From: Pseudomonadota bacterium
GTDB lineage: Bacteria > Pseudomonadota > Gammaproteobacteria > Halothiobacillales > Halothiobacillaceae
Direction: 5' to 3'
NCBI GenBank assembly: GCA_021801265.1
Contig: JAJYYE010000010.1
Location: 1 to 64,000, forward strand
Length of the DNA stretch: 64,000 nucleotides
This document shows positions 4,115 to 21,789 of the stretch, in pieces; position 1 is the stretch's first letter, and each line of letters opens with the position of its first letter. The translations under genes were made by a program, and so were the position numbers. The notes under the pieces are model-generated. The model saw nothing but the letters and a program-made list of their open reading frames with translations. It was not told where the DNA came from and ran no database searches.

Positions 4115-7100
4115 TTTCTGAGCTGCCTGTGCGGCAGTGAACTCATGCTGGGTAGCGGGCTGGATCTTTCATCTTTTCTGAGCTGCCTGTGCGGCAGTGA
4201 ACGGCCAACGATGCGCCGCCCCCGTCAATGGTTATTTCTGAGCTGCCTGTGCGGCAGTGAACCAAGGTGGAAAGCAAGAAAGACTTAGCTAAACTTTCTG
4301 AGCTGCCTGTGCGGCAGTGAACCGGAACTGATCATTACTTATACTCAACCGTCTTTTCTGAGCTGCCTGTGCGGCAGTGAACTCCGCACCATCCTGAGCG
4401 GTGCCCCCGTTACCTTTCTGAGCTGCCTGTACGGCAGTGAACCAAACGCATCTGACCCGCCCTTGAGCTGGCCCTTTCTGAGCTGCCTGTGCGGCAGTGA
4501 ACATGGCTACGCCTCGCGGCTGTGCCTTCAGATCTTTCTGAGCTGCCTGTGCGGCAGTGAACGCGGCGATGCCCCGGCCGGAAACATTCACAACTTTCTG
4601 AGCTGCCTGTGCGGCAGTGAACTGCTCAACTCAGATAACGGGCTATTCTGTGCATTTCTGAGCTGCCTGTGCGGCAGTGAACAGAACCCTCGCCGGCGAT
4701 GCCTGCCCATCAGATTTCTGAGCTGCCTGTGCGGCAGTGAACAGAACCCTCGCCGGCGATGCCTGCCCATCAGATTTCTGAGCTGCCTGTGCGGCAGTGA
4801 ACACGATCTGCTGCCATGACGCGCGGGGTTATCTTTTCTGAGCTGCCTGTGCGGCAGTGAACTTGTGGATCGTCTGGAAGGGTTGCCCCCCGATTTTCTG
4901 AGCTGCCTGTGCGGCAGTGAACGGACGCCAGCAAAATGATCGTTCCTGCCGGGTTTTCTGAGCTGCCTGTGCGGCAGTGAACATGCGGTTATTACTGATC
5001 CGCCATATGGCATTTTTCTGAGCTGCCTGTGCGGCAGTGAACTTGAGCAGCACATCGCCCATGATCTGCTGAGCTTTCTGAGCTGCCTGTGCGGCAGTGA
5101 ACTTTGCCGATGGGGATGATGCGGCTGCCCATGTTTTCTGAGCTGCCTGTGCGGCAGTGAACCATCCGGTTAGCGCGACTTGCGCTTCGATGATTTTCTG
5201 AGCTGCCTGTGCGGCAGTGAACGCCCCGCTTGACATACGACTGGATAATTAATTTTTCTGAGCTGCCTGTGCGGCAGTGAACTTTTGTTTGCGTGGCGGT
5301 GATTCGTCAGAATCTTTCTGAGCTGCCTGTGCGGCAGTGAACGTTATTCAACAAAGCGGCTCAAGTTTTGCACATTTCTGAGCTGCCTGTGCGGCAGTGA
5401 ACGTGTTGGTGGCCGCCGAGCTGTAGCCGGTGTTTTTCTGAGCTGCCTGTGCGGCAGTGAACAGCGGGTACGAGATTTTACTGGACTATTTCGATTTCTG
5501 AGCTGCCTGTGCGGCAGTGAACTATCCCTGTAAAACAAATGCTCGTGAATCTCTTTTCTGAGCTGCCTGTGCGGCAGTGAACTGATGCCCGTCATAATCC
5601 CCATGCGGTCGAGTTTTCTGAGCTGCCTGTGCGGCAGTGAACGGGCTAACACCGCACCCCGCAAATCGCCCATTTTTCTGAGCTGCCTGTGCGGCAGTGA
5701 ACATTATTCTGGCGTTGATCGAGTTAACACGAACTTTCTGAGCTGCCTGTGCGGCAGTGAACGGCCAGACTGTCCGCGTACCCCTCGACCGCATTTTCTG
5801 AGCTGCCTGTGCGGCAGTGAACGTCAAAGTCAGGATATACCGCACCTGAATTCATTTCTGAGCTGCCTGTGCGGCAGTGAACAGAGCCCGGCTTGAATCT
5901 CATCTGACGCAAGATTTCTGAGCTGCCTGTGCGGCAGTGAACGTCCGGCTCATCTGCGGCCCATGTCGGCGTGATTTCTGAGCTGCCTGTGCGGCAGTGA
6001 ACTCACTGTCTTGTTGCTGGCTCCTGACGCATCTTTTCTGAGCTGCCTGTGCGGCAGTGAACCGTCAGACGATGGGCCGGTGTATTCATTGCATTTTCTG
6101 AGCTGCCTGTGCGGCAGTGAACTTTGTGTGTTCATTATCTCGCCCACGTTAAAATTTCTGAGCTGCCTGTGCGGCAGTGAACGTGTGATCAGACAGGGTA
6201 AGCCAATCGTCGTTTTTCTGAGCTGCCTGTGCGGCAGTGAACAGAGCGAGCGCATCGTCTCGGCGAGCACCGCTTTTCTGAGCTGCCTGTGCGGCAGTGA
6301 ACGATGCAAACTGGCATCATGAGCCACGGGACCGTTTCTGAGCTGCCTGTGCGGCAGTGAACTCGTAAATCTGCTGTTCAAGGCATTCCGTGACTTTCTG
6401 AGCTGCCTGTGCGGCAGTGAACTGGGTAAGCAGGCACGCCGCGTCATCCTGATCTTTCTGAGCTGCCTGTGCGGCAGTGAACTGGACTTGGCGAACTGAT
6501 TGCCGATGTGACCCTTTCTGAGCTGCCTGTGCGGCAGTGAACTTTATCGTTTGCCCTTGTTGGATAGCATGATTTTTCTGAGCTGCCTGTGCGGCAGTGA
6601 ACTATGCTCATCGAATATTGACGATAATGTGCGATTTCTGAGCTGCCTGTGCGGCAGTGAACCTGTTGATCATTTATTGCACTGACTGCCTTCGTTTCTG
6701 AGCTGCCTGTGCGGCAGTGAACTCGCCCGCCAGGCGGTGCCATATACGGCTGAATTTCTGAGCTGCCTGTGCGGCAGTGAACACAAAAAGAGCTTGCAAA
6801 CAGGGAGTTTTTATTTTCTGAGCTGCCTGTGCGGCAGTGAACGTTTGTGAAGAGAACAAAGACGCGATTTCTAATTTCTGAGCTGCCTGTGCGGCAGTGA
6901 ACCGGAATGGCAACAACCGGGCTTTATCAATAATTTTCTGAGCTGCCTGTGCGGCAGTGAACGGTCACAAGGAGCGTCAGCGTTAATTCAATCATTTCTG
7001 AGCTGCCTGTGCGGCAGTGAACGATTATATCTGCTCAATGAGTTTGACATTAAATTTCTGAGCTGCCTGTGCGGCAGTGAACATGTCGAATCAATCCAAA

Positions 7101-10100
7101 ACATTATTGAATTATTTCTGAGCTGCCTGTGCGGCAGTGAACTGCGCGGTCACATACGCCGCCCATTCCGGTTTTTTCTGAGCTGCCTGTGCGGCAGTGA
7201 ACATCAACGGCTACGCATTCCAGTTCCGCATCGATTTCTGAGCTGCCTGTGCGGCAGTGAACGTACACCTGCAGCGATGACCACGACTCATGCATTTCTG
7301 AGCTGCCTGTGCGGCAGTGAACACGGCGGTGATCAGCGCATCGGTCGCGGTTGGTTTCTGAGCTGCCTGTGCGGCAGTGAACATCAGCCGCGCGCGGCGA
7401 TTTGGCGAAACTGTTTTCTGAGCTGCCTGTGCGGCAGTGAACGCATTGGATTGGGCGCAGTGATTGCCGCCGGTTTTCTGAGCTGCCTGTGCGGCAGTGA
7501 ACCCTTGGCGCTTCTGCATTGCGCCGATGCTCGATTTCTGAGCTGCCTGTGCGGCAGTGAACGATGGCGGCGAGGGCATCCCGGAAATGAATAGTTTCTG
7601 AGCTGCCTGTGCGGCAGTGAACGCTAAAATCTCGCGCTCTTTTGCTTTGCGTACTTTCTGAGCTGCCTGTGCGGCAGTGAACTTTTATCGCAGTCAACAT
7701 ATTGATTCTGATTTTTTCTGAGCTGCCTGTGCGGCAGTGAACGGGATGGTTGACGACGCAGAATCAGATGTACTTTTTCTGAGCTGCCTGTGCGGCAGTG
7801 AACAGGTCATCAAGGCGAATATTGATGATGTGATTTTTCTGAGCTGCCTGTGCGGCAGTGAACGTCGATGCTTGCAAGCCCTTTGATTTCTCTTATTTCT
7901 GAGCTGCCTGTGCGGCAGTGAACGGAAAAGGCTGGATTTAAGAGCGGTTATGAGCTTTCTGAGCTGCCTGTGCGGCAGTGAACGTTGTTAATATGGCTTC
8001 ACCAACAACGAACGATTTCTGAGCTGCCTGTGCGGCAGTGAACAGCAGGTGATTGAGGAGGCCATTGAAGCCGCTTTTCTGAGCTGCCTGTGCGGCAGTG
8101 AACGGGTTCAGGCTGATGCCGATGGCTGACACATTTTTCTGAGCTGCCTGTGCGGCAGTGAACGTCATCATTTGGCAGGCTTGCCGCTGGTACTTTTTCT
8201 GAGCTGCCTGTGCGGCAGTGAACATCATTATTGCAATGGCGGCATCAATGGCTTTTTTCTGAGCTGCCTGTGCGGCAGTGAACGTTTCCGCGTCGCTGAT
8301 CGCCCGCGCTGATTTTTTCTGAGCTGCCTGTGCGGCAGTGAACAGTGGGCAGACGTTGAGCGCAGATTTCTTGCTTTTCTGAGCTGCCTGTGCGGCAGTG
8401 AACGCATTCGAGCCGCAACGGAAGCGCGTGGTACATTTCTGAGCTGCCTGTGCGGCAGTGAACTAAGTGCGCGCACTTTCACCTGCGCACTTATATTTCT
8501 GAGCTGCCTGTGCGGCAGTGAACAGAACGCGCCGGGGTGTCATCACGCACGATAATTTCTGAGCTGCCTGTGCGGCAGTGAACGGAATATCAGTTTTTAC
8601 TTCATCCAATAAATCTTTCTGAGCTGCCTGTGCGGCAGTGAACTGTCGCCCGATTATAAATGGGGCGAATTGGTATTTCTGAGCTGCCTGTGCGGCAGTG
8701 AACATCAATGATGAAGTCGTTGAGACTATTGAGGATTTCTGAGCTGCCTGTGCGGCAGTGAACGAAACGCAAAAGCGGCGGGGGCGCCCACCTAATTTCT
8801 GAGCTGCCTGTGCGGCAGTGAACTTAACGCATTTGCCATTAATACTGATTCTTGATTTCTGAGCTGCCTGTGCGGCAGTGAACTCCGACTTTTTGTCTAA
8901 TCAAAATAATCTACATTTCTGAGCTGCCTGTGCGGCAGTGAACTTGAAATGAATTACTCGTTAATTGGTGCTTATTTTCTGAGCTGCCTGTGCGGCAGTG
9001 AACAGTGGGGTAATGAACTACTTTCCGCGTGGAATTTTCTGAGCTGCCTGTGCGGCAGTGAACGAGCGCGTCAGTCAATATCGATGACACGTCCTTTTCT
9101 GAGCTGCCTGTGCGGCAGTGAACGGCTGCTGCCGCCGATCGCTCTGGCGCGGATGTTTCTGAGCTGCCTGTGCGGCAGTGAACGATGTGTCCAGCGTGCA
9201 GGCCATCGTATGGGTTTTCTGAGCTGCCTGTGCGGCAGTGAACCTCTCGCTTTTGCCCAGTGCACAAATTCTTCTTTTCTGAGCTGCCTGTGCGGCAGTG
9301 AACGTTGTACACGTTAAAATCCTGGCCGATGTGCATTTCTGAGCTGCCTGTGCGGCAGTGAACCTGAGATCGATGAGGTTATCGAGGATGACGGCTTTCT
9401 GAGCTGCCTGTGCGGCAGTGAACTCGATCGGCCGCGACCATGATTGAGCCAGAAATTTCTGAGCTGCCTGTGCGGCAGTGAACTCTATGACCGCTGGCAG
9501 AAAGAGCCAACAGACTTTCTGAGCTGCCTGTGCGGCAGTGAACTGCCCTTCGCCGTCTTGGATGAGGCGATTCACTTTCTGAGCTGCCTGTGCGGCAGTG
9601 AACGGCGGGAGGTTCCGCTCGTTGCTATACGTCGATTTCTGAGCTGCCTGTGCGGCAGTGAACCATGAATTCACAGGAGGGTGGCTTTAATTATGTTTCT
9701 GAGCTGCCTGTGCGGCAGTGAACCAGCAGCGACACCGAATCGTCAACGACCAATCTTTCTGAGCTGCCTGTGCGGCAGTGAACTGCCGGACGTGGTCGAT
9801 GGCCGAATCACATACTTTCTGAGCTGCCTGTGCGGCAGTGAACCGCGGGTAACCAATTCGCCGAACCAAGTCATATTTCTGAGCTGCCTGTGCGGCAGTG
9901 AACTCCCGGGTAACGTGCGCGATACCGTCTACCACTTTCTGAGCTGCCTGTGCGGCAGTGAACGCACTGTCCAGCGTTCAATGCTGGTTGGCCAATTTCT
10001 GAGCTGCCTGTGCGGCAGTGAACGTGTGATCAGACAGGGTAAGCCGATCGTTGTTTTTCTGAGCTGCCTGTGCGGCAGTGAACGTTATTCAACAAAGCGG

Positions 10101-11883
10101 CTCAAGTTTTGCGCATTTCTGAGCTGCCTGTGCGGCAGTGAACGCATGTCGTTAAGTGCGTGGCAAATGACTCTTTTTCTGAGCTGCCTGTGCGGCAGTG
10201 AACCTCCCGGACGACGATTTAAAAATGTTGTGACTTTTCTGAGCTGCCTGTGCGGCAGTGAACTTGCTGGTGAATTTCGCGCGTTTGATCGACACTTTCT
10301 GAGCTGCCTGTGCGGCAGTGAACACCCAAAAATGGGCATTTCGTATCGAATTGCTTTTCTGAGCTGCCTGTGCGGCAGTGAACGCTGGTTTTTAGTTGAA
10401 GTATTTGGATTAAATTTTCTGAGCTGCCTGTGCGGCAGTGAACCATTGCCTGTGGGTGAGCATTGTCATAGTGTATTTCTGAGCTGCCTGTGCGGCAGTG
10501 AACGCGCGTTAACAATAATTCCCTCTGCTACTTCATTTCTGAGCTGCCTGTGCGGCAGTGAACAATCAACCCCATCCAATTAAATGCTATTAATCTTTCT
10601 GAGCTGCCTGTGCGGCAGTGAACAAACGGTCGCGCAGGACGCGGCCTTATTGGTTTTTCTGAGCTGCCTGTGCGGCAGTGAACTCTATTTCGTGGACTAT
10701 CCGGTTTTGCCGAGTTTTCTGAGCTGCCTGTGCGGCAGTGAACGAATCAATCATTATTGCACCATCCCCGGTAGTTTTCTGAGCTGCCTGTGCGGCAGTG
10801 AACCGTATTGCGCATTATGGGCATACCATATTATTTTTCTGAGCTGCCTGTGCGGCAGTGAACTTGCCGGTGAATTTCGCGCGTTTGATCGACACTTTCT
10901 GAGCTGCCTGTGCGGCAGTGAACCAATCGTGTACCCCAATAAAGCATCTTTATCTTTTCTGAGCTGCCTGTGCGGCAGTGAACCACAAAAGGACTGGACC
11001 TTTTTTGTGTTTTGATTTCTGAGCTGCCTGTGCGGCAGTGAACACGTAAAAGTTGAAGTGACTCGTCTTTTTTTCTTTCTGAGCTGCCTGTGCGGCAGTG
11101 AACACGCGCTTAAAGAATCTTCTGCAGTTGAGTTCTTTCTGAGCTGCCTGTGCGGCAGTGAACGCGATTCCATCAACGATGCAAGAGCGGTTGATTTTCT
11201 GAGCTGCCTGTGCGGCAGTGAACGCGATTCCATCAACGATGCAAGAGCGGTTGATTTTCTGAGCTGCCTGTGCGGCAGTGAACATGTCACTTTATCGAAA
11301 TCGAGATCGAGTTTGTTTCTGAGCTGCCTGTGCGGCAGTGAACAAATGTTGCGGCTGGTGAGATTATTTCACGTATTTCTGAGCTGCCTGTGCGGCAGTG
11401 AACCTGCGCCGATAATCGTGCATGTCTGTCCATTGTTTCTGAGCTGCCTGTGCGGCAGTGAACCCTACTGAATTCATGATTTAAATTTTCCTGTTTTTCT
11501 GAGCTGCCTGTGCGGCAGTGAACACCGCGTGGCGGGCAGTTACACCTTAAACCTTTTTCTGAGCTGCCTGTGCGGCAGTGAACGGGTAGATATAGGCCGC
11601 ACCAAGCGCCGATGATTTCTGAGCTGCCTGTGCGGCAGTGAACTAGGGTGCAGCAGCATACATCGTGGCCTCACGTTTCTGAGCTGCCTGTGCGGCAGTG
11701 AACCAAGATGATCGGCTCTCGATGCGCCCGGTACCTTTCTGAGCTGCCTGTGCGGCAGTGAACGACTTGACTGCCCTGATTCAGTCGATTGATTTTTTCT
11801 GAGCTGCCTGTGCGGCAGTGAACGACTTGACTGCCCTGATTCAGTCGATTGATTTTTTCTGAGCTGCCTGTGCGGCAGTGAAC
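4115..11883 (-). CRISPR. Type I-F CRISPR array, 130 repeats, 129 spacers
   Basis: A 28-bp repeat recurs every 60 bp. In transcript sense it begins GTTCACTGCC, has the Csy4 hairpin CTGCC-GCACA-GGCAG and ends with the 8-nt handle CTCAGAAA. Spacers are 32 bp except one of 33 bp (7743-7775). Counting start positions gives 61 repeats from 4115 to 7715 and 69 from 7776 to 11856. I see one variant repeat (4415-4442, G to A at 4431, in the hairpin loop). The repeat at 4115, the oldest end, is not degenerate. Transcription runs leftward from the leader at 11884. Adjacent identical spacer pairs: 4683/4743, 11164/11224 and 11764/11824. Near-identical separated pairs: 5343/10084, 6183/10024 and 10264/10864. 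Short ORFs inside the array are artefacts of the repeat. Confidence 0.99.
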
Positions 11884-12012
11884 TAGCGTTTTTGACGTCT
11901 AACATGCTAATTGTTAAAGAAAGTAAGCACAAATACTCTTTTAAGCCTTTCCCCCTGCACCCCGCGTAACCGAATGATTTTCAGAAGGTATTAGATGCAC
12001 CGGGAAAAAGGG
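11884..12012 (-). promoter_or_regulatory. CRISPR leader with IHF-like site
   Basis: About 129 bp between the csy4 stop codon and the newest repeat. On the minus strand an IHF-like sequence AATCATTCGGTTA (11967-11979, one mismatch to WATCAANNNNTTR) lies about 85 bp from the first repeat; IHF is known to assist type I-F spacer integration. A possible promoter is TTGACC (12011-12016) and TCTAAT (11990-11995), with a short 15-bp spacing. The array may also be read from the csy operon. Confidence 0.6.
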
Positions 12013-12588
12013 TCAAAACCACGGCACTGTTGCCGTATTGCTCAGTCCGTAGGCACTGAATATTCCGGGCACAGCGACATCCTGAATCGGCCGGTGCTCA
12101 ACAAAGAGCTTAAATCGTTGGCTGGTGGTTGCGCTGGACAACGTGACAAACGGAAGATTCAGCCGCTCGGCGGCACTATCTGGGATAGATTCGCACGCGG
12201 CAACTTCATCGATCTGTTTGCGCATCATCAAACGACGGCGAAGCCGTTCCGGACTGCTTTTGGCCTGAACTCGACACACAACACGCTGTTTAGCTCCATC
12301 GGGAACGGCCATGATTCCAGTGAGTTCGCAGTGATCGCGCATTCCCTGAAGCCATCCTGACTGCATCAAGCCATGCAGATTTCCACGGCTTCCGTGCAAG
12401 CGTACTCGCTGCCCCAAGGTTCGGCTACCCTGTGTCGAATCGGGGCGGATATCGGGGAAACTCAATCCGATGCGCTGACTGCCATGATTCACTAAACCGC
12501 GATGCAGTTTGGAAAATAACGCGCTCATCAAGATATTTGCCGTAAATTCGGGATCGGGATGCAAAAGAATTTCCAAGTAGTGATCCAT
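12013..12588 (-). CDS. csy4: Cas6f/Csy4 crRNA endoribonuclease
   Basis: A 191-aa protein closely matching Pseudomonas aeruginosa Csy4 (187 aa) throughout: MDHYLEILLHPDPEF at the start, the arginine-rich helix SSPERLRRRLMMRK that grips the repeat hairpin, and the terminal VPWF. The catalytic His29 (KLH), the LPFVTLSS serine region and the AYGLS tyrosine (about 180) are all present. It cleaves pre-crRNA after the GGCAG of each hairpin and stays bound to the crRNA 3' stem. It is the last gene of csy1-4 and starts 2 bp after csy3 ends. It should also process the mini-CRISPR at 16370-16463, whose hairpins keep the same shape. Confidence 0.97.
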   Translation of the reverse strand: MDHYLEILLHPDPEFTANILMSALFSKLHRGLVNHGSQRIGLSFPDIRPDSTQGSRTLGQRVRLHGSRGNLHGLMQSGWLQGMRDHCELTGIMAVPDGAKQRVVCRVQAKSSPERLRRRLMMRKQIDEVAACESIPDSAAERLNLPFVTLSSATTSQRFKLFVEHRPIQDVAVPGIFSAYGLSNTATVPWF

Positions 12589-12590
12589 AT

Positions 12591-13610
12591 TCAGCCCGCC
12601 TCACCAAAAACACCACCCCGAATCAGGATCGCCATCACAAAATGCTGCTGTTCCAGCGGGGGTACTTTGTCATTAACGATCCAGTTATCCAACAAATTGT
12701 AAAAATCCAGCTTCTGCTTCGGCTGGCGGTACGCTTTACCCAGTGTGGTCACAGAGCCATAGGGCTCCACGGCGATGGGATCAATCGCATCCGCGCCTTC
12801 GTACCAAGTGTCGATAGTGCGAAGGGCATTACCGATTTTTTGCGAGTGCATGCCTGCAATGTTGTCGACCTGATAAAGCGTTTTACTTTTATCACCACGG
12901 CCTCGATCAAGAATGAGTTCCTGTGACGGGAACACCTCCTGCCCCGCCCCGAGACGAACATAGGCGGTGACGTGGAGCAGGACGTGCAGCGTGCCCGCCA
13001 GCCCGTTGGCCACCAAGCCCGCCAATGTTTCGAGGTCGTTTTGAGCTTGCGTTGACACACCAAAATTGCGCAACGATAAAGCCAGAGCATCAAAGACCCA
13101 GGTATTTTCAGCGATTCCATTGACGAGGTGCGCCACCCGCACCTCCACTTGCTCCGCCCCAATGCGGTTGCGCCACAGGAAGCGCCCATTGGCCAAGTTG
13201 GAGGCATAGCGCCGGGCAAGTTCGGTAAAGCCGTTGGCTTCCACATAAGCTTTTACCGTGTCCGTCAACTTGGTTTGGTAATCCGTGTCATTGCAGGCGG
13301 AAGGCTTGCCCGTACCGGCGAGTACGCGCAGAGTGAAGCTGACTTTGAGGGTATCGTCATCGGCGGGAAGTGCGGCAACATCAACGGTTTGCAGATTGGG
13401 GCTTTCAATGGCGGCATCGAGCTTGGCAGGATCTTGATCCTTGGCTTTGAGCCGATTGGAAATCGTCCCACGCACGGATTTTGGTTTGATATTTACGGGG
13501 CTCCACGAACTCCCGCTTGACCGTGCATCCCAACGCCCTGAAAAAAACAGGGCATCGGATGGGTCGAGTTTGCGTTCAAAAGCGAGTACAGAGGCAGTTT
13601 TGAGTATCAT
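12591..13610 (-). CDS. csy3: Cas7f/Csy3 backbone subunit
   Basis: A 339-aa subunit (P. aeruginosa Csy3 is 342 aa) with the family N-terminus [20 protein letters not shown] and the [17 protein letters not shown] segment. Six copies form the helical backbone of the type I-F surveillance complex. Each covers 6 nt of crRNA spacer and flips out every sixth base, so mismatches at position 6 are tolerated. That property matters for the partial match made by the mini-CRISPR spacer. It lies 27 bp after csy2 and 2 bp before csy4. Confidence 0.96.
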
Positions 13611-13637
13611 GATCGGGCTCCTTGCGGTGTGGATGGG

Positions 13638-14639
13638 TCAGTCGGGTTGAATGGGCGCGGGGGGCGCGAAGTTGTTACGGATACGGTACAGCCCCTTTTC
13701 GGGGACGGTTTGGGCGTACCACAGAAGCTGCTGCGCATTGCTCAGACGATGCGCACCGAGCCATTGCCCGATGGAATACAGGCTTTCGACAAAGCGGAAC
13801 GGGATTTGTGCGTCGCGGACATTAAGCACGCTTCCGGCGGGTTGAGAGTCCGAAAGAGCGGCGTAACCGACAGGAATCGGCACAAGCCAACCTTCGGTGC
13901 GGTCATGCTGCCATTCGATTTTTCCATCTTCTTTTTTAGAAGAAGGTACAGGTCGCCAGTTAAAACGTGACAGATCAAGCCAGGCATCCAGCGCCGTTGA
14001 TTCCGGGGTTTCGGCCTGCAAGGCATCGAGGCGTGCGTACAAAAGATCATCACGGCACACCAGCGCAAAACCCGGCAGCCATTGCCTGCGCAGCCTGCGA
14101 AATTGTTTACGGGCATCATCCACATCGTCAGCCCATCGGATCAGCTCCGGTTTGATGGCGCGCCCAAAGCTTGGTGCGGGCGGCAACACACTACCTCCCG
14201 CCACGCGTAGCGTGCTCAGTACGTCGAGCACATTCCGGGCAACTTCCTCCCGCATGGCTTCATCGTGCTCGATAAACCCACCCGATACGCCGAACACAAG
14301 AGTGATGTCAAGGTGGATGCGGCCTTCCTCGACGATGGCGGCCGTGCTGCCATCTTTATCCACCGGGTTGCGGGTCAGACGGAAGGCTTTGACGTAACCA
14401 CCCTCAGTGGTTTGCTCATCGAAGCCATGACAAATTACGCCGACGCTATCGAAGCTGCGAAAAGCAGGTGAAAACATTTGTTGCGCCGCCAGTTTGCGCT
14501 CCAATGCCCACATCAAGCCAAGAAAGGCGGTCATGGAAGGAAAACCGTGCGTCATCGGGCTGGAAATGGCGTTGGCATTCTGAATGCGCAGATGTGGCAA
14601 AATCAGCAATCCATCACTTTCTGTAAACATCGTGCTCAT
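13638..14639 (-). CDS. csy2: Cas5f/Csy2 subunit
   Basis: A 333-aa protein opening with LLILPHLRIQNANAISSPMT, the Csy2 signature, and containing GFPSMTAFLGLMWALER. It pairs with Cas8f and caps the 5' handle of the crRNA in the Csy complex. The start ATG overlaps the csy1 stop codon by 4 bp (ATGA), so translation is coupled. Confidence 0.96.
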   Translation of the reverse strand: MSTMFTESDGLLILPHLRIQNANAISSPMTHGFPSMTAFLGLMWALERKLAAQQMFSPAFRSFDSVGVICHGFDEQTTEGGYVKAFRLTRNPVDKDGSTAAIVEEGRIHLDITLVFGVSGGFIEHDEAMREEVARNVLDVLSTLRVAGGSVLPPAPSFGRAIKPELIRWADDVDDARKQFRRLRRQWLPGFALVCRDDLLYARLDALQAETPESTALDAWLDLSRFNWRPVPSSKKEDGKIEWQHDRTEGWLVPIPVGYAALSDSQPAGSVLNVRDAQIPFRFVESLYSIGQWLGAHRLSNAQQLLWYAQTVPEKGLYRIRNNFAPPAPIQPD

Positions 14640-16027
14640 ATACCCTCCCCCATTGAATTTCGTGTTGGGATATAAGTCGGTGAATCCTGCGTCCTGCGTA
14701 ACTGGCGGAGATGTTGCGCCCAGCCATCCTGACTTTCATCCAGCAGCAATTCCCGCTGCCAATAGCGCTGTTCAATATCACCCAACGGTAACTTGCCATG
14801 GGCATTCAGTTGAGCATTCAGCCAGTTGCCAAAGCGCGCGCCGACTCCCTTCGGCCAGTCCATCCACAACCACTGCTTGTAGAAATCTTCTTCGCTCGGG
14901 ATTTCGGCACGGCGCGGGTCGAGCCACAGGCGCTCCGCCTGCACCAAACGACACTGATGATCCGAACTCCAGCCGGGAGGCAGGCCATTCTGAAATTCAG
15001 CCGCAAACACAACGAGCTCACCAATCAATACATCGACGTAAGCATCCACCCTATCGCGAGTTTCCATTGTAGAGGGCGGCGCACTTTCAAGAAATTTCCG
15101 AAAATCGCGCAGAATCAACCAAACTTCCCGGCGTTGGCCATAGAGATGTTCAAACACTGAATCAATCTGCCAGGGCGTTCGAATTTCCCGCGATTGCCAG
15201 ACGGGCGGCAGAGAGCCAAGCAGGTAATTGTTACCGCCGCGCTCGCTGTTCAACTGGCTGATGTTTTGCGGCTTCGTACCGCCTAACTTCTGCACAGCCA
15301 GATCAGGATAGGAGCGATAACTGTCGTCATAATCCTTCCTTTCCCGACGCGCTTCTCTGGCCAGTTTGTTCTGCTCCCCGAAGCGATCTTCGTTGATAAT
15401 CTGAAACACTGCATGTGCCAACGAACTGGCGTACAGCGGCGCAAGCAGCTCGTAATGCTCGTCGAGTACAGGATTTTCCCCGACGAACCAGTACAGTTGT
15501 TTTGCGCGGGCGTGCGAGGCAAATACGCCGTCGCGCGGGCGAGTGACGCCGGCGAAGGCATCCATCCATGCCTGTGCCTGAACCGAGTCATCGCTTAACG
15601 CGGCAATTGCATCCGAATCACCTGCGAGCAGCCAATCCAGCAAGGTACGGCCATCCACTTCAAGTTTAAGCAACTTGTAAATATCCAACGCCGCCGCGTT
15701 GCCGACGACATCGCCGGAAAAATCTTGCCCAAGAACATGACTGCCAACCTCCGCCAACCCTTCCATTTGCTCAGGCAGAACATAGAGATTGGTGCCGCGC
15801 GCATCGGGATGGATGGGTTTAAGCGAGTGAGTAACCACTTGAATTTGCCTGACGCGCCGAGCCGCATCTTCAAGCCAGACCGGGGCGGCATATTGCGCAA
15901 TCAAGTCATCGCGATTTGGATCGTCTTCAGCCAGTTTTTCAAGCTTGGCATCAAGACGCCCCCTCAAAAATTGGAGGATCGATGTGCGAAAACGGTCTCT
16001 ACTTTTTTCTGTCAACAAATCAGACAT
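14636..16027 (-). CDS. csy1: Cas8f/Csy1 large subunit
   Basis: A 463-aa large subunit of the Csy complex; in the family Csy1 reads the CC PAM and recruits Cas2-3. The start is set at MSDLLTEKSRDRF (16027) because AAAAGGAG lies 5 nt upstream. The longer frame beginning at 16045 lacks a ribosome site. The C-terminal part contains the RREVWLILRDFRKFLESAPP segment typical of Csy1. It is the first protein gene after the promoter at 16260-16288 and has an untranslated leader of about 225 nt that carries the mini-ORF and hairpins described separately. Confidence 0.95.
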   Translation of the reverse strand: MSDLLTEKSRDRFRTSILQFLRGRLDAKLEKLAEDDPNRDDLIAQYAAPVWLEDAARRVRQIQVVTHSLKPIHPDARGTNLYVLPEQMEGLAEVGSHVLGQDFSGDVVGNAAALDIYKLLKLEVDGRTLLDWLLAGDSDAIAALSDDSVQAQAWMDAFAGVTRPRDGVFASHARAKQLYWFVGENPVLDEHYELLAPLYASSLAHAVFQIINEDRFGEQNKLAREARRERKDYDDSYRSYPDLAVQKLGGTKPQNISQLNSERGGNNYLLGSLPPVWQSREIRTPWQIDSVFEHLYGQRREVWLILRDFRKFLESAPPSTMETRDRVDAYVDVLIGELVVFAAEFQNGLPPGWSSDHQCRLVQAERLWLDPRRAEIPSEEDFYKQWLWMDWPKGVGARFGNWLNAQLNAHGKLPLGDIEQRYWQRELLLDESQDGWAQHLRQLRRTQDSPTYIPTRNSMGEGI

Positions 16028-16061
16028 AGAAACTCCTTTTACCAAACAGATCAGAACAGTA

Positions 16062-16118
16062 GAATCCCCGAGGCAATGCCTTGGGGATTCAGGTCGCAGG
16101 ACAATACCGTTGTCCTGC
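16062..16118 (-). promoter_or_regulatory. Two stable RNA hairpins in the csy1 leader
   Basis: Hairpin 1 (16096-16118) has a perfect 9-bp stem, GCAGGACAA / TTGTCCTGC, with a 5-nt loop. Hairpin 2 (16062-16090) pairs GAATCCCC with GGGGATTC, then an inner AGGC/GCCT stem. Neither is followed by a U-run, so they are not classic terminators. They sit between the start-stop/mini-ORF and the csy1 ribosome site. They could stabilise a small RNA processed from the 5' end or attenuate entry into csy1. Confidence 0.6.
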
Positions 16119-16119
16119 C

Positions 16120-16152
16120 TCAGGCTATTATGGTCATGTGAGTTTTAGTCAC
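16120..16152 (-). other. Start-stop / 10-codon mini-ORF with a strong ribosome site (CreT-like candidate)
   Basis: On the minus strand a near-perfect Shine-Dalgarno AAGGAGG (16161-16167) is followed after 6 nt by ATG (16152-16154) and immediately by TGA. The overlapping GTG at 16150-16152 opens a 10-codon frame encoding MTKTHMTIIA, whose codons 8-9 are the rare ATA-ATA, then TGA. Known CreT RNA toxins combine a strong ribosome site with a tiny ORF holding tandem rare codons that sequester a tRNA. A start-stop would trap initiating ribosomes. The resemblance is architectural; toxicity is inferred. It lies about 100 nt after the predicted transcription start and before two hairpins. Confidence 0.45.
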
Positions 16153-16259
16153 ATCTATATCCTCCTTACCGGATCAACGCTTGCGGTTGCGCCCTCGCCT
16201 CGTCGGCCAAGGTATGGCAAACGCTTCAGATGCTCTGGACCAGCATCGGAAGCACATTC

Positions 16260-16288
16260 ATCCTAAAGAGGCTCTCAATATAAGTCAA
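16260..16288 (-). promoter_or_regulatory. Promoter of the csy1-4 leader transcript
   Basis: On the minus strand, -35 TTGACT (16283-16288), a 17-bp spacer and -10 TAGGAT (16260-16265) face csy1. Upstream of -35 the sequence is AT-rich, like an UP element. The CC PAM and the site matching the mini-CRISPR spacer begin 3-5 bp upstream of the -35 box, so a bound Csy complex would block RNA polymerase. Confidence 0.7.
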
Positions 16289-16290
16289 CA

Positions 16291-16309
16291 CCAATAAATG
16301 ACGGATTTT
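16291..16309 (+). promoter_or_regulatory. CC PAM and protospacer-like site matched by the mini-CRISPR spacer
   Basis: CC (16291-16292) is followed by AATAAATGACGGATTTT (16293-16309). The spacer of the mini-CRISPR begins AATAAGTGACGGATTTT (16398-16414). They agree at 16 of 17 positions; the only mismatch is at position 6, which type I complexes do not read. Beyond position 17 the match stops. A PAM plus seed match without full pairing is the pattern expected for binding without cleavage. Confidence 0.75.
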
Positions 16310-16332
16310 CAATATTATTTAACAAACCAAAT

Positions 16333-16361
16333 TTGCCCTTCATCTCTCGAAAAATTAAACT
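16333..16361 (+). promoter_or_regulatory. Predicted promoter of the mini-CRISPR
   Basis: Plus-strand TTGCCC (16333-16338) and TAAACT (16356-16361) are spaced by 17 bp, each 4 of 6 to consensus. The predicted transcription start at about 16368 falls at the first base of the first degenerate repeat (16370), which would fit a leaderless crRNA-like gene. Confidence 0.5.
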
Positions 16362-16369
16362 CCCTATTA

Positions 16370-16463
16370 CAACACTGCTGAAAAAGCAGCTAAGAAAAAT
16401 AAGTGACGGATTTTATTGAGTTAATCCTCATCACTCACCACTGCCGCACAGGCAGCTCTTGTT
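16370..16463 (+). ncRNA. Single-spacer mini-CRISPR, crRNA-like (CreA/CreR-type candidate)
   Basis: Repeat 1 (16370-16397) is degenerate but keeps a 5-bp hairpin, CTGCT-GAAAA-AGCAG, where one C-G pair of the array repeat is replaced by a compensated T-A pair. It ends in CTAAGAAA, a canonical type I-F 5' handle. A 38-nt spacer (16398-16435) follows, which is 32+6 and so fits one extra Csy3. Repeat 2 (16436-16463) has 20 nt identical to the array repeat (CACTGCCGCACAGGCAGCTC) but a degenerate 3' end. Csy4 cleavage would give one crRNA of about 66 nt. Orientation is antisense to the cas operon, unlike the main array. The spacer's 5' end matches the site at 16293, next to the csy promoter. Confidence 0.8.
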
Positions 16464-16477
16464 CCTCAGGCACCCCT

Positions 16478-19400
16478 TTAAACCGCTCTGGTAAACCCCA
16501 GTATCGGATGAAATCGCCACCCCTGTGTGGCATCCGGCAGGCTGACAATGCCAAATCGTTCCGCACAGGCGCGAAGCGAAATATCCAATACGCCAACCTG
16601 ATCGGCCAGCGCTTCCAAGTAATCTGCCGTACCCCACGGCGCAATGCGGTCACCGAAGGTCAGGTCAACCTGGTGATTTTTGCTCTCGATCAAGACATAC
16701 AATTTTTCCCATTTACGTGCGCCGGGGGCAATGGAATAGAGCGCGTAGTTGTCTTCGTTTTCATTGGGCAGCAAAATGAGATCAATACGCTTGATCGGAT
16801 CAAAGCGGAAGGGTTGCTGCTGCGGCAGAACGCCGGTCAGCCAGACATGTGGCTGCATCCAGTGGCTAGTGGCATTTAATACGGGACGAGGTTGCCTTCC
16901 ACGCACACCCGACGATGGCACATTGTTCATTGCTGGCAGCATTTGCCGAGCGAGCCGGGCGTGCTCCAGATCTACCCAGTGTTCCGTAGGCATCAGTTTC
17001 TCACTACGCGGCAGAATGCGTGGGCGAGCATCGATAATGCTGCGCTCCTGTTCATCCAGCAATTTTTCCAGCAGGTGTGTGCTGAGTTTGAAGCCCGGTT
17101 CATCACGCTCGAAGCCGGGTTTATAAAATGCGAGATCTCCCGGCTGTTCAAAATGGCGCAAATTAGTTTGAAAAATCAGCAGGTTGACGTGTTCGACACT
17201 GCCCATCCGGTGACGGTGAACACGCCCGGCAAGCTGAATGAGCGAGCGCATCGAGGAAGGCTCGACCACCGCCCAGTCATAATCGTGATCCCGCCCCACT
17301 TCGGTCACGGGCGAACCCAAGACAATAAATAGGTGGTCGTTTTCGGGATATGCGTCCAGTGCACGGCGAATCCCTGGAAGATCGAACACGGCATTGGGCT
17401 GGCGGCGGTTGAGTGCAGTATCAAGCTGATACTCAATCGCTGAACGCAGCAACAACGGGAACTGCGAGTGATAAACACACAGGTGAATGCGCGTGCCCGC
17501 TGGTGCGCCGAGGCGATAAAGCGCCAGCGCCACATCAAATAATGGGGAGATATTGGCCATGCGCACCAGTCCGAAGCTAACGCGCTTGCCGCCGAGAGGA
17601 TCACAACTGTGGTTACTTGCATGGAGACCCATGGCCGCGTCGCGGATTTTTTCGGCAAATTGTTGGCGACGCTCGACAATGTCTTGCGTGGTAAAACTCA
17701 AAGGCAGCAGTTTGCTGCGGCGACGGACGGCTTCCTTACCCAGTCGCACATGGCGTTTCTGGGCGAAAGCAATGTGTGTGGCACGGAACACATCCGTAGC
17801 GGCACAGTCATGCTGGGCTTGGCTGAATTCATCGAACCAGGCGCAACAAATATTGGGCCATTCACCAGGGCGCTCCCCTCGGTTGCGCTGATACCAGCTT
17901 CGGCCATCAAGGTAGGCCCGAAATAACCCTTCAATCAGTGCGGGAGGAAGGGTTGCCGAGGAAAGCAGGACGCGGCCGCCGAGCAGTCCCGCCCAATGCA
18001 CCAGCCGGGTCAGTGCAGGCAAGTCATCGATATCGAAATCATCCGGCTCATCCAGCACCAGATCGCCGCTCATCAGGCGCAACATTGGGGCAATCTGCCG
18101 CCCACCGCGCAGGCTTTCCGTGGCAGGGGTCAAGTGATCGATAGTGCAAACCAGTAAGGGCGCTGCCAGCAACTTCCGCGTTTGTGCATCATGCCCGAGG
18201 CGCTGCAGCAAAGGGTCGTCGTCGTTGCCGTCGAAAAGCACATGCCCATCTTCAGCCAGCAATTCCTGCACGGAGGCCGAACCACTGTTTTCGGCAATGC
18301 GTTCGTAGTATTCGAACAGTTCCCGGTTCGCACCACCACCTACCATGATGGCCAGCTCATCATCGGATAAACCCAAGGCATCACGGAAGGCGCGCCCAGT
18401 TTGCAGCGTGAGCGTGCGCAACCCCATCGCGAAAGCACAGCGCATGCCTTTAGCCGGGTCGGCCAGCGCATTCATGATGCGGGCATTCGCCAATGTCTTG
18501 CCGCTGCCCGTAGAGGCCATATTGACGATGAACGCACCGTGCCGCGCTGTGCGCTCACGCATGGCAGCGGCCGTGTCGGCAGCACCATCTTGCCAGCGAA
18601 AGCGTGGGTCTACACTACGTTTGCGTAAGCCCTGGTGCCGGGCAAGGCGCGGCAAATGCCGCTCGAATCCCGGCAAGGCATGCGCAATCAGGCCGCTGTG
18701 TTTGGCGACTCCGAGCAAATGCTCATCCAGCGTCTGGTTGTAATCGCCGGTCTTGCGATTGGTGTTAGCATACAGGAGGTAGCCGGGGTCGCTCGGCTCC
18801 CGCTCGCCCTTTTCCGTCAACCCGGAATAGTGGTGATCGGCCAGCATGAGCGTGAGACGAGCCAGATGCATTACATAAGGATCATCCAGCCAATCCGTAC
18901 CATCTGATTTTCGCGTATTCGCCAACAGGCGCTTGGACAAGCGTGCCGCCTGCTTGCGCCAGGGCTGTAAGGTGGTTGGCAGGCCATGCTGAAAATGCCA
19001 GTAGGTTTCAACCTCAGTGCGCTCAGATGGCCGAACCCACTCATTCCAACCCGAATTTATCCGCTCAAGGATGTTATTAAGATCAACACTGTTAAATTCG
19101 CGTAACTTGCCACCCAATTGATTAGGTTTGTCCTTGTCTGGCATGACTGGCAAACGATGATGGGTAAGGATCAGCCAACCTATGGCACGGGCGAGCGGAG
19201 GCAAGTGCGCCAAGGGATTGTTGCCGTTAGCCGACGTATCAATTCCATCTCGGAAACCGGATGACAACCAGCGAGCATCACCGTCATCCATCGGTCCAAT
19301 CAGGCGTTGAAGCCATTGCGCATCTGTTTTGTCATTACCGACAAAAGCCTGAAACAGACGCAACGAAATCCACTCATGACGATAAAGATTGCGCAAAAAC

Positions 19401-19822
19401 CCGCCCTGGGAATGCAATCGCTGTTGAAAGGCGAGGCAGGCCTTGCCAAGATCGTGCAGCAGAGCCGCCAGCGTGGCAAGCAGGTAGATGACTTGAAGAT
19501 TGTGCCAGTCATTTTCGTCCTCGCAGCGAAGCACATTACGCTGAGTAATGTTTGTCGGTGTAGCGCCACTAACATTAAACTGACGCGCATCACCCACAAT
19601 CCACAACAGTTCGCTATGGTCTTTGCCGCGTATCCAGTGGCAGGCTACAGCGGTATTTTTGCGCGCGGTTTTGCGCAGCAGGCGACGCAAGGTTTCAAGA
19701 CCCGCTTGAGTGATGGGTGTTTGCCAAGCGCGATCACCCCGACGCTCGGCGAACTGGTCAAGGATGCGCCTGGTTTCAACCAAGGCATTCTTGCTGCACT
19801 GAGAAATCAGCATAATATTCAT
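16478..19822 (-). CDS. cas3: Cas2-3 fusion, type I-F nuclease-helicase
   Basis: A 1114-aa fusion typical of type I-F. Residues 1-95 are the Cas2 domain (MNIMLISQCSKNALVETRRI). The HD nuclease motif LLHDLGK lies at about 121-127, Walker A (STGSGKT) near 437, a DEAD-like VLDEPDDFD box follows, then SSATL. It acts in adaptation with Cas1 and, recruited by the Csy complex, unwinds and shreds target DNA. It starts in a 4-bp overlap with the cas1 stop. It is separated from csy1 by 450 bp carrying its own promoter, so adaptation/degradation genes and surveillance genes can be controlled separately. Confidence 0.97.
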   Translation of the reverse strand: MNIMLISQCSKNALVETRRILDQFAERRGDRAWQTPITQAGLETLRRLLRKTARKNTAVACHWIRGKDHSELLWIVGDARQFNVSGATPTNITQRNVLRCEDENDWHNLQVIYLLATLAALLHDLGKACLAFQQRLHSQGGFLRNLYRHEWISLRLFQAFVGNDKTDAQWLQRLIGPMDDGDARWLSSGFRDGIDTSANGNNPLAHLPPLARAIGWLILTHHRLPVMPDKDKPNQLGGKLREFNSVDLNNILERINSGWNEWVRPSERTEVETYWHFQHGLPTTLQPWRKQAARLSKRLLANTRKSDGTDWLDDPYVMHLARLTLMLADHHYSGLTEKGEREPSDPGYLLYANTNRKTGDYNQTLDEHLLGVAKHSGLIAHALPGFERHLPRLARHQGLRKRSVDPRFRWQDGAADTAAAMRERTARHGAFIVNMASTGSGKTLANARIMNALADPAKGMRCAFAMGLRTLTLQTGRAFRDALGLSDDELAIMVGGGANRELFEYYERIAENSGSASVQELLAEDGHVLFDGNDDDPLLQRLGHDAQTRKLLAAPLLVCTIDHLTPATESLRGGRQIAPMLRLMSGDLVLDEPDDFDIDDLPALTRLVHWAGLLGGRVLLSSATLPPALIEGLFRAYLDGRSWYQRNRGERPGEWPNICCAWFDEFSQAQHDCAATDVFRATHIAFAQKRHVRLGKEAVRRRSKLLPLSFTTQDIVERRQQFAEKIRDAAMGLHASNHSCDPLGGKRVSFGLVRMANISPLFDVALALYRLGAPAGTRIHLCVYHSQFPLLLRSAIEYQLDTALNRRQPNAVFDLPGIRRALDAYPENDHLFIVLGSPVTEVGRDHDYDWAVVEPSSMRSLIQLAGRVHRHRMGSVEHVNLLIFQTNLRHFEQPGDLAFYKPGFERDEPGFKLSTHLLEKLLDEQERSIIDARPRILPRSEKLMPTEHWVDLEHARLARQMLPAMNNVPSSGVRGRQPRPVLNATSHWMQPHVWLTGVLPQQQPFRFDPIKRIDLILLPNENEDNYALYSIAPGARKWEKLYVLIESKNHQVDLTFGDRIAPWGTADYLEALADQVGVLDISLRACAERFGIVSLPDATQGWRFHPILGFTRAV

Positions 19823-20796
19823 GATGCTGAGCGCCCAAGCCGGGTAGCGATGGCCTTGAGTGTATCGATCATGAAATCGAGCGCTTCCGTGCGCGTCAAA
19901 GCTTCGATGCAGGCACGACGGAACGCCTGTTCGTCATCGCCACGCATGGCCGAAATAAAAGCCTGCGGCAGGATGATTGCGTCTTTGATGAGATCGGCAA
20001 CATCGAAAACGAGCCCGCCACGGCGCGTTTTGCCATGCAACACAGCCAATCCGTGCGGCAACCCGAGCACCCAACATGCAGTAGCACCCAGACCGTAGGC
20101 AAGATAGTTGCCGTGATCGAGGAAACGATTGGCCGAATCAACGCCCATACCGTCCTTGGTACGGACGAACTCGCCATACTTGGTGGCATCGCAGGCGAAT
20201 TTAAACAGCTTCTTGGTTAAACGGGCTTCCTCCATGAGCAAGGCAGTATTATCAGAAACCGTATCGATCTCCTGGCGGGAAGACTCCAAAGCGCCACGCA
20301 GCCGCTCTTGTGATATGCGAAAGCCAGACTCACTCAATACACGGTTATCGTTCCAATGCACCGCAATGGCTTGAAGACGCGCCTGCTGAAAGGCCTTGGC
20401 TGCTTCGAGACGCAAAGCATCGTCAAACCAAAACCGTACCCAGCCTTGTAAATATTCCGTTGGTCGGTATTCGCTTTGCGGAGAAAACCAAGCGACCTCG
20501 ACATCTACCTCGTTCGCACTGAATAATGGAGTCCCTCCGCCCCCGCAGAACCCGATTATAACGCCTGCCTTGGCCAGCTCCCGCATGGCAGCTTGCGTAA
20601 TTGAAGTACCTGTACCCAATAGCACGCTGGTGGTGTTTGCGATGGGAATATTCCAGTAGAGCGAGTGCTTACCCGCATCCGTGACATACTCGATCCGCCC
20701 GCCATTGACCAAAATCCGGCAATGCTCAAGGTAGTAAAGATTGGCACGCTTGGAATGCAGGATGGTTTTGAGATCTGAAGAATGCAAACTTTCCAT
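19819..20796 (-). CDS. cas1: Cas1 integrase, type I-F
   Basis: A 325-aa protein matching P. aeruginosa Cas1 closely: LKTILHSKRANLYYLEHCRI, NTTSVLLGTGTSITQAAMRE and FCGGGGTPLFSANEVDVEV. The metal ligands are present: Glu in EEARLTKKLF, His in HGLAVLHGKTRRGG, Asp in DVADLIKD. It inserts new spacers together with Cas2-3. The start is set at ATG 20796 (MESLHSSDLKTIL) by alignment to the family; GGAGG lies about 15 nt upstream. The frame could extend to a GTG at 20820. It follows the WYL regulator closely and is probably cotranscribed with it. Confidence 0.97.
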   Translation of the reverse strand: MESLHSSDLKTILHSKRANLYYLEHCRILVNGGRIEYVTDAGKHSLYWNIPIANTTSVLLGTGTSITQAAMRELAKAGVIIGFCGGGGTPLFSANEVDVEVAWFSPQSEYRPTEYLQGWVRFWFDDALRLEAAKAFQQARLQAIAVHWNDNRVLSESGFRISQERLRGALESSRQEIDTVSDNTALLMEEARLTKKLFKFACDATKYGEFVRTKDGMGVDSANRFLDHGNYLAYGLGATACWVLGLPHGLAVLHGKTRRGGLVFDVADLIKDAIILPQAFISAMRGDDEQAFRRACIEALTRTEALDFMIDTLKAIATRLGRSAS

Positions 20797-20853
20797 TTTG
20801 GTTATATCTAACCTCCACACTTCTCTCTAACACGGTGATTCACGCCTCATCAG

Positions 20854-21732
20854 TCATCCCCACATCAACGGTTCAATCTCCGCCCGATTCACCAGCACAA
20901 TCTGCTGCACCTTGGGATCCGGATGCTGCCGCTCGGGTTCAATCTGCATCAGGCGCAGAAAGTACGGCACGAGGGCCTGCCGGATGCGCTGAATGCTTTG
21001 CCCATCCACCATGCCGTAATCCTCGGCCAGAATGGCTTGCTGCGCTACGGGCAAGTCAGGATGCGGGGCAATAACGATAGCCACCTCTGTTTTCCAGGCG
21101 GTATCGTCTTTGGCGCTGATTGCCGGTTCATCCCATAAGGTCGCCCTGCCCCGCATCCGGGCCAGGACAAAATCCCGGTATTCCTTGTGGGTGTCGCTAT
21201 ATGCACGGATGTGCCAGCGATAGCCGCTGTAGACGAGACTGTGGGGCGAGAGGATCAGTTCCGTTGGCTCGGGCCGGTTCATGGATTGATAGGCGACGGT
21301 GAATTTGCGCTGCTGGCAGAGGGCACTGCTGACCACACGCAAGGTGTGCCAATCCAGTTCACGCTCCATCGGTTTAATCAGGGCGATAGCTGGCACAGTC
21401 GCCGCCAAGGTCACCACCGGCGCATCGGGCATCTGCAGTGCTTGCAAAGCCTCGAGTAATTCAGATGCCTTGCCGGTCAGCAGTAAAGGAACGAATTCAG
21501 AGGTAGCTTCGTAGTATTTACGGGATTTGTTGTAGGCCAGATTGTCCGGGCGTAGCCCCATATAAATCGCAAAGTCCTTGGATGCCTGCGCCCGACTGAT
21601 GCCGAAGGTATCCACCAGTGCCTGGGTGCGCACCCAACCGGTGAGCAGCAGGGTGCCTTCCAGTAATTTAAGCCGCTGCCGCAGATCCCATTTCAGACCG
21701 GCTGCATCTGCCACGTCGTCCCGATTCGCCAT
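20854..21732 (-). CDS. WYL-domain transcriptional regulator (CapW/BrxR-like)
   Basis: A 292-aa protein. An N-terminal winged helix-turn-helix (about 15-75: QALVDTFGISRAQASKDFAI) is followed by the linker YNKSRKYYEATSEFVP and a WYL domain around 120-215 (SLVYSGYRWHIRAYSDTHKEY). WYL regulators such as CapW and BrxR repress or tune phage-defence operons and sense nucleic acid signals. It is the first gene of the unit leading into cas1 and cas2-3, with GGAGGAG before its ATG. It is divergent from a 106-aa gene whose promoter holds a perfect inverted repeat, its probable operator. Binding to that site is inference. Confidence 0.88.
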   Translation of the reverse strand: MANRDDVADAAGLKWDLRQRLKLLEGTLLLTGWVRTQALVDTFGISRAQASKDFAIYMGLRPDNLAYNKSRKYYEATSEFVPLLLTGKASELLEALQALQMPDAPVVTLAATVPAIALIKPMERELDWHTLRVVSSALCQQRKFTVAYQSMNRPEPTELILSPHSLVYSGYRWHIRAYSDTHKEYRDFVLARMRGRATLWDEPAISAKDDTAWKTEVAIVIAPHPDLPVAQQAILAEDYGMVDGQSIQRIRQALVPYFLRLMQIEPERQHPDPKVQQIVLVNRAEIEPLMWG

Positions 21733-21761
21733 CGTCTCTCCTCCATTCAGTAATGACCCTC

Positions 21762-21789
21762 ATTGTGCAGATAGCAAAACAGATGTCAA
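21762..21789 (-). promoter_or_regulatory. Promoter of the WYL-cas1-cas2-3 unit
   Basis: Minus-strand TTGACA (21784-21789, consensus -35) and CACAAT (21762-21767, 4 of 6) are spaced 16 bp, about 30 bp before the WYL start codon. Confidence 0.6.

Follow-up and report, generated by a model that had tools for sequence, protein, structure and literature searches.

The CreTA module, an RNA toxin-antitoxin of type VIII, has been shown for type I-F CRISPR (clustered regularly interspaced short palindromic repeats) systems in Acinetobacter sp. WCHA45 (PMC10097628). Its toxin, CreT, is toxic by itself and needs both its start codon and a start-codon hairpin, single synonymous changes abolish toxicity only at codons 2, 3 and 5, and the mechanism was interpreted as an action on ribosomal RNA and not via rare codons (PMC10097628). 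Here we analysed a 64,000-nucleotide stretch from a Halothiobacillaceae bacterium (positions 1 to 64,000 of contig JAJYYE010000010.1, assembly GCA_021801265.1; hereafter the window), in which a one-spacer mini-CRISPR lies at 16370-16463 (plus strand) in the cas3-csy1 gap, antisense to csy1. To judge from its sequence, this type I-F1 cas operon likely contains a CreTA-type module whose CreT-like leader has tandem AUA codons.

The Acinetobacter I-F modules (WCHA45, LoGeW2-3 and ANC3789) resemble the window in their place in the cas3-csy1 gap, their two degenerate repeats and CC protospacer-adjacent motif (PAM), a pairing broken at position 6 (in WCHA45 at 6, 11 and 18), and a divergent 33-bp mini-open reading frame (ORF) with Shine-Dalgarno sequence and start-codon hairpin (PMC10097628). 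The window differs in its 38-nt spacer, as opposed to 20 nt in WCHA45, and in having ATA ATA and a GTG start; the LoGeW2-3 ORF reads ATG TTT AGC ACA CAT TTA GTT AGA AGG GTC TAG, with AGA AGG at codons 8-9. Two consecutive AUA codons, a stem-loop after them and two degenerate repeats are also shared with the type I-B module of Halobacterium hubeiense, whose CreT was shown to sequester tRNA-Ile(CAU) (PMC8501985). Unlike the minigene in the window, this archaeal toxin has six codons, is leaderless and is without Shine-Dalgarno sequence, and we compare the way it works without claiming homology (PMC8501985).

A further parallel is offered by CreR, the cas-regulating RNAs (Liu 2023) of types I-B, I-E and V-A, which are likewise guides with limited complementarity to a cas promoter (as given in the reviews PMC13131331 and PMC12737573). 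Unlike in CreR, the promoter in the window would first serve a CreT-like minigene. Mini-array regulators of type I-F1 with a promoter-matching spacer near cas8 were reportedly described by Shmakov in 2023; that work is not known to include a toxin-like minigene. In the literature searched (the supplements, Shmakov 2023 and Liu 2023 lying outside it), no report of tandem rare codons in an I-F CreT was found, and their novelty is unproven.

The mini-CRISPR and its target beside the predicted csy promoter

A sequence-only reading of this DNA had placed two degenerate I-F repeats and an enclosed 38-nt spacer in the cas3-csy1 gap, and our analysis agreed with its coordinates, repeats and spacer base for base. 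Each repeat is identical to the array repeat at 20/28 bases and folds as a 5-bp hairpin with a 5-nt loop. Alignment and folding confirmed that the Csy4 hairpin is kept in both, and that repeat 1 has a compensated pair (C-G to T-A) and the CTAAGAAA handle. As in creA, the spacer lies between two degenerate repeats that keep the Cas6 and handle elements. Across the whole genome, the handle-bearing repeat pattern (at most two mismatches) occurred 130 times on the minus strand and once on the plus strand, the latter being repeat 1 (16370-16397).

The first 17 nt of the spacer match positions 16293-16309 except at position 6, behind a CC at 16291-16292, as had been noted before. Pairing fails at 18-20, with scattered matches only beyond, which supports the earlier expectation that pairing stops after 17 and that no interference would follow. 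Markov resampling of the flanking DNA (1500 trials) gave no 17-mer match better than 14, compared with 16 for the real site, and the CC target pattern (at most two mismatches) occurs once in the whole genome apart from the spacer itself. Two bases separate the PAM from the -35 box of a predicted promoter reading towards csy1, in keeping with the earlier placement of the target beside this box. As in CreTA, the guide partially matches a PAM-flanked site at the promoter, here a predicted one, of a creT-like gene.

A scan of positions 16020-16520 returned two promoter-like sites (shuffled sequences averaged 0.7), namely the minus-strand TTGACT-17-TAGGAT and a plus-strand site. No second promoter-like site was found on the csy strand within these limits, and the weak candidate promoter of the mini-CRISPR (16333..16361) was not returned by this stricter scan. 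Because the sole promoter-like site on the csy strand precedes both the minigene described below and csy1-4, toxin and effector would probably be co-repressed.

Conservation of guide and target in relatives

Loci with csy1 were drawn from a class survey (34/369 genomes with a csy1 match, the source genome included; 30 loci fetched), two plasmids and 579 named genome loci, of which the best 80 were taken. Including the window, 112 loci were examined, some of them truncated where the contig stopped; L054, whose gap holds an array, was left out. By a single fixed rule, 44 of the 112 carry paired degenerate repeats antisense to csy1. A PAM-blind search, in which sites were ranked by their seed match over ten positions (1-5 and 7-11), revealed CC before the best site in 43/44 loci, compared with 31/352 for swapped guides, and a seed score of 10/10 in 30/44 real guides versus 0/352 swapped guides. 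A relaxed search of the remaining loci yielded L031, L069 and L095 with CC, L070 with TC, and an unlikely match with AC in L057. In a held-out phylum sample of 15 further loci, the repeat pair was absent in 8 and present in 7 (L126 repeating L086), and the best site stood behind CC in 7/7 pair-bearing loci. Throughout the 43 guide loci, the handle survives in repeat 1, together with a stem showing compensated changes, and repeat 2 has lost the handle while retaining its hairpin. Comparison of the cas3-csy1 gaps of relatives, to which the sequence-only reading had pointed, therefore found guide and PAM-flanked seed match conserved, and these comparisons indicate that the arrangement is conserved across many proteobacterial genera and is not due to chance.

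Since the sites were selected on positions 1-5 and 7-11, match rates are unbiased only at the other positions. Position 6 matched in 5/43 guides, position 12 in 14/43 and position 18 in 6/39; positions 13-17 matched in 165/207 cells (position 14 alone in only 27/43), and the signal beyond 18 was weak. Bases are flipped out every six positions in type I guides, and the mismatches gathering at 6, 12 and 18 are, on this sequence evidence, the six-base rhythm of such a guide. Position 6 was mismatched in 4 of six new held-out loci. Selection for a mismatch at this position was rejected, as 5/43 matches were observed and 13% expected by independence, and the mismatch is therefore put down to drift. 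Mutations in WCHA45 CreA showed that positions 2-5, 7-9 and 13-17 are needed, position 1 partly so, and that 10, 12, 19 and 20 are dispensable (PMC10097628).

Guide and target also change together. Among 20 related locus pairs, pairing was kept in 44 differences at paired positions, guide and target having both changed, and was lost in 24, versus 0 pairing-keeping and 27 mismatching changes at positions 6, 12 and 18, although the 20 pairs are not statistically independent and agreement at 1-11 is favoured by the matching used to select the sites. In two genomes (L142 and L144) the guide is identical; their targets differ at 6, 12 and 14 within the first 17, two of these being flipped-out positions. 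In 17 of 42 loci, the best-scoring -35 box begins 2-7 bases beyond the first base of the PAM; in 4 it falls inside the seed, and in 21 elsewhere.

Several loci stood apart. About 1048 nt upstream of csy1, L065 (an Acidovorax metagenome-assembled genome) has a one-spacer array of near-intact repeats with a 32-nt spacer that resembles tRNA sequence by eye, no tRNA being found in the locus; it is the sole exception of the 44, with its best seed site behind GT rather than CC. In L062, L071 and L075 the target starts 8-10 nt before repeat 1, such that a full protospacer would overlap the repeat, and its distance from the estimated start of csy1 is 33-49 nt. The best target of L110 is on the opposite strand to that of the other 42 CC loci, yet still behind CC.

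A CreT-like minigene with tandem rare codons in the csy leader

The predicted csy leader of about 226 nt (about 16253 to 16028) folds with a z-score of -3.85, with 0/200 shuffles as good. Under the predicted promoter, its sequence points to a minigene with a strong translation start, as expected of creT, in which the tandem rare codons of archaeal CreT and the start-codon hairpin of WCHA45 CreT occur together (Table 1). CreR has no toxin gene under the repressed promoter; here a putative CreT-like minigene lies there. The sequence-only reading had missed this apparent leader minigene, whose rare tandem codons are AGA, TTA or ATA pairs in relatives.

The same design was found in many relatives, mostly 99-148 nt before csy1 (in L008 at -437), and L096 carries two tandem CreT-like minigenes, at -241 and -136 before csy1, both with AGA AGA at codons 8-9. 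Codon use was compared in a set of ORFs from 33 loci, chosen by Shine-Dalgarno sequence, pairing of the start with codon 5, length and place, with codon use ignored; host codon usage came from the long ORFs of each locus (780 to 16348 codons, some few). Median frequencies per 1000 host codons were 3.0 for codon 8 and 1.9 for codon 9, versus 9-29 for codons 2-7 and 10. Both codons were at or below 7 per 1000 in 29/31 ORFs with nine codons, which 0/20000 permutations reached, and they encode the same residue twice in 26/31, compared with 0-2/33 for the neighbouring pairs 2-3 to 7-8. The pairs comprised AGA AGA (10), TTA TTA (6), ATA ATA (4), AGA AGG (3), AGA TTA (2) and six single kinds. A test with a fixed codon set returned 28/113 loci in sense (79 ORFs) and 0 in antisense (24 ORFs), and 0 or 1 locus in each of 20 Markov control sets (29-64 ORFs).

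The start-codon hairpin recurs as well. When 26 ORFs were picked by Shine-Dalgarno sequence without the pairing rule, the start codon paired with codon 5 in 23 (GTG 19/21, ATG 4/5) and with codon 4 too in 14, with 0-4 for other codons. RNAalifold on 27 aligned leaders retained the start-codon helix as the sole helix, and three flanking pairs of this helix, which had not been selected for, were each present in 20/27 leaders with several pair types.

Presence of the minigene went along with the distance of the target. Of the 43 guide loci, 29 have their target at least 200 nt before csy1, 22 of these with the minigene, and the 14 with a nearer target have none, suggesting that a guide of one design acts on a toxin-like leader in some loci and straight on csy1 in others. 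Near versions were seen by eye in L013, L053, L056, L059 and L004 among the seven distant-target loci that fail the strict minigene test. Seven more minigene loci are without the strict repeat pair: in six a single repeat was found at 356-371 nt from csy1, and for the remaining one, LoGeW2-3, paired repeats have been published (PMC10097628). The held-out set had the minigene in 1/14 loci (L130, AGA AGA).

Guide length and guide folding

Complexes with N Csy3-type subunits follow L = 6N-4, and R-loops of at most 26 bp do not trigger Cas2/3 (PMC7296934). The 43 spacers measure 14-16, 18-21, 24-27, 29-32 or 38 nt, clustering at 6N-4 with a six-base period (Rayleigh Z 13.2; Z 10.1 with one per genus, n=36; reached by 0/20000 jittered sets), and the six held-out spacers measure 13, 13, 20, 21, 21 and 32 nt. 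These natural lengths (14-38 nt, at 6N-4) look like that assembly rule acting in evolution. With 38 nt (N=7), the window spacer is the longest among the 43 guides, and its safety depends on pairing stopping at 17. Spacers shortened by at least 18 nt, i.e. to 14 nt, failed to hold back phage (PMC7296934), which argues against the shortest natural guides binding strongly.

Folding is better in guides of at least 23 nt (mean z -0.83, n=29) than in canonical spacers (-0.11, n=250). A self-folding guide was rejected: with close relatives removed (n=25) there was no clear strand bias (-0.63 versus -0.49, lower in 13/25), and the seed was hardly more paired than in controls (0.42 versus 0.40 and 0.37), leaving the trend unexplained. 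Avoidance of far-end pairing by long guides was not established (positions 19-23 match in 18/45 for guides of at least 29 nt versus 55/100 for those of 24-27 nt, p=0.11). In the window spacer (16398-16435) the seed half pairs with the far half, with z -3.44 for the 66-nt RNA.

The type I-F1 locus

The mini-CRISPR sits within a complete type I-F1 locus, in which cas1, cas2/3, csy1-4 and I-F repeats are all present (Table 1). Among 27 genomes of the window's own family, csy1 was found in one, the source genome. Searching positions 7000-23000 against Rfam at gathering scores revealed array repeats and one tRNA, and nothing else. A WYL-domain gene (PF13280; 20854-21732, minus strand) lies directly upstream of cas1 and is a possible further regulator of the locus.

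Table 1. Features of the locus in window coordinates, with promoters, minigene and guide processing as predicted from sequence.
Feature	Position	Strand	Remarks
Main CRISPR array	4115..11883	-	
csy4 (cas6f)	12013..12588	-	gene identification in window
csy3 (cas7f)	12591..13610	-	gene identification in window
csy2 (cas5f)	13638..14639	-	gene identification in window
csy1 (cas8f)	14636..16027	-	gene identification in window
Leader hairpin GAATCCCC/GGGGATTC	16062..16090	-	by eye, similar GC hairpin then ATTCTA in many relatives
Leader hairpin GCAGGACAA/TTGTCCTGC	16096..16118	-	
CreT-like mini-ORF, 33 bp	16120..16152	-	GTG ACT AAA ACT CAC ATG ACC ATA ATA GCC TGA
Tandem rare codons ATA ATA, codons 8-9	16126..16131	-	ATA 4.1 per 1000 codons, long ORFs of window
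Start-codon hairpin AUGUGA/UCACAU	16136..16154	-	GTG paired with codon 5 CAC, 7-nt loop
Shine-Dalgarno sequence TAAGGAGG of minigene	16161..16168	-	
Predicted promoter PcreT/Pcsy	16260..16288	-	TTGACT-17-TAGGAT
CC PAM of target	16291..16292	+	
Target	16293..16309	+	16/17 identical to spacer start, mismatch at 6
Weak candidate mini-CRISPR promoter	16333..16361	+	TTGCCC-17-TAAACT; ends 8 nt before repeat 1; consensus score only
Degenerate repeat 1 (psiR1)	16370..16397	+	hairpin CTGCT/AGCAG; handle CTAAGAAA kept
Predicted mature guide RNA, 66 nt	16390..16455	+	8-nt handle, 38-nt spacer, 20-nt 3' hairpin; processing predicted
Spacer, 38 nt	16398..16435	+	38 = 6x7-4
Degenerate repeat 2 (psiR2)	16436..16463	+	hairpin intact, handle lost
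cas3f (cas2/3)	16478..19822	-	convergent with mini-CRISPR
cas1f	19819..20820	-	gene identification in window

Searches of phage sequences gave no counterpart. The 17-mer pattern of the guide matches 15 IMG/VR stretches, none of them preceded by CC or a repeat handle, and these were taken as chance; a scan of IMG/VR for close relatives of csy1 yielded no confirmed match, and the cas3-csy1 gap matched no phage record.

Discussion

On sequence evidence, a CreTA toxin-antitoxin module describes this locus better than simple self-repression by Csy, because the transcript from the predicted promoter would begin with a CreT-like minigene also seen in relatives' csy leaders. The CreA/CreR-like design put forward by the sequence-only reading holds for the crRNA-like (CRISPR RNA-like) guide, PAM, seed and tolerated position-6 mismatch, but not as pure autorepression, since the transcript would start with that minigene. 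Its proposal that Csy represses its own operon stands in so far as co-repression of csy1-4 is likely, there being no other promoter-like site on that strand, although CreTA fits better than simple self-repression.

Anatomy, conservation, guide-target co-change and the conserved rare codons are shown by the sequences; how the module is expressed and processed, what it represses, its toxicity and its co-transcription with csy are predicted from them, as follows. The plus-strand mini-CRISPR (creA) would be transcribed, and Csy4 would cut out a 66-nt crRNA-like guide that is loaded into a Csy complex with seven Csy3 subunits by the 6N-4 rule. This complex would bind the CC-flanked site beside the -35 box via 16 of the first 17 bases and, because the R-loop would be too short to call Cas2/3, merely block transcription. 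The blocked transcript would start with the CreT-like minigene and probably run on into csy1-4. A strong ribosome-binding site, start-codon hairpin and tandem ATA may be expected to tie up ribosomes together with the scarce AUA-decoding tRNA. Were Csy lost or blocked, the promoter would open; because it is predicted to precede both minigene and csy1-4, release would raise Csy and toxin together, and the toxin would arrest the cell if Csy activity did not return.

A broader account, which we put forward tentatively and as somewhat short of an even chance, joins several proposals: that one guide-controlled promoter drives a toxin together with the effector that silences it (repair-or-die), that I-F CreT traps ribosomes at two host-rare codons at positions 8-9, that these are re-coded among arginine, isoleucine and leucine tRNAs per host, and that guide lengths correspond to whole Csy3 subunits (6N-4).

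Several observations weigh against the CreTA interpretation or parts of it. In WCHA45, the synonymous changes did not show rare codons 8-9 to be necessary for CreT, and the target lies downstream of the start site there but upstream of the -35 box in the window (PMC10097628). Four codons are rarer than ATA in the window, and the minigene starts with GTG instead of ATG. The three central start-codon pairs in 27/27 leaders are a selection rule, not a result. The minigene is missing from every guide locus with a target less than 200 nt from csy1, fails the strict test in 7/29 loci with a longer distance, and was found in only one of 6 new held-out guide loci. The leader may also be simply regulatory.

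One such regulatory alternative, which we regard as rather doubtful, is leader-peptide attenuation, in which stalling at the tandem rare codons alters the folding of downstream hairpins and tunes csy to tRNA charging, with the guide as a second layer. Tandem like codons at a fixed place, strong hairpins after them and a leader that folds better than all 200 of its shuffles are what such a mechanism would look like. However, the GC hairpin downstream in the window is without a T-run and was not called a terminator, RNAalifold on the 27 aligned leaders (the sole search for an antiterminator) retained nothing beyond the start-codon hairpin, and the related WCHA45 CreT is toxic by itself (PMC10097628). 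Unlikely, too, is a CreR-type autorepressor only, whose guide would damp csy1-4 and sense free Csy versus the canonical crRNAs of the 130-repeat array, with a leader ORF that is not toxic. CreR is known from other types (PMC13131331, PMC12737573), and in eight relatives the target lies 33-62 nt from where csy1 is estimated to start and the minigene test is negative, suggesting that the guide can serve csy1 alone. The window is nonetheless of the distant kind, in which the tandem-rare-codon ORF is common, and not of the near kind, in which it is absent. The degenerate repeats might finally suggest an ordinary or decayed CRISPR remnant with an accidental self-match, but arrangement, PAM and co-change are conserved across many proteobacterial genera, a chance match is unlikely by the resampling, and this explanation was rejected as extremely improbable.

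If the CreTA interpretation is true, a cell in which Csy is lost or inhibited may both make more effector and be blocked in growth; switching on of the leader by an anti-CRISPR would follow from both this interpretation and the autorepressor. Two host-rare codons at positions 8-9 beside a start-codon hairpin would unite bacterial and archaeal toxins under one idea, and would offer a way of finding such modules in I-F genomes.
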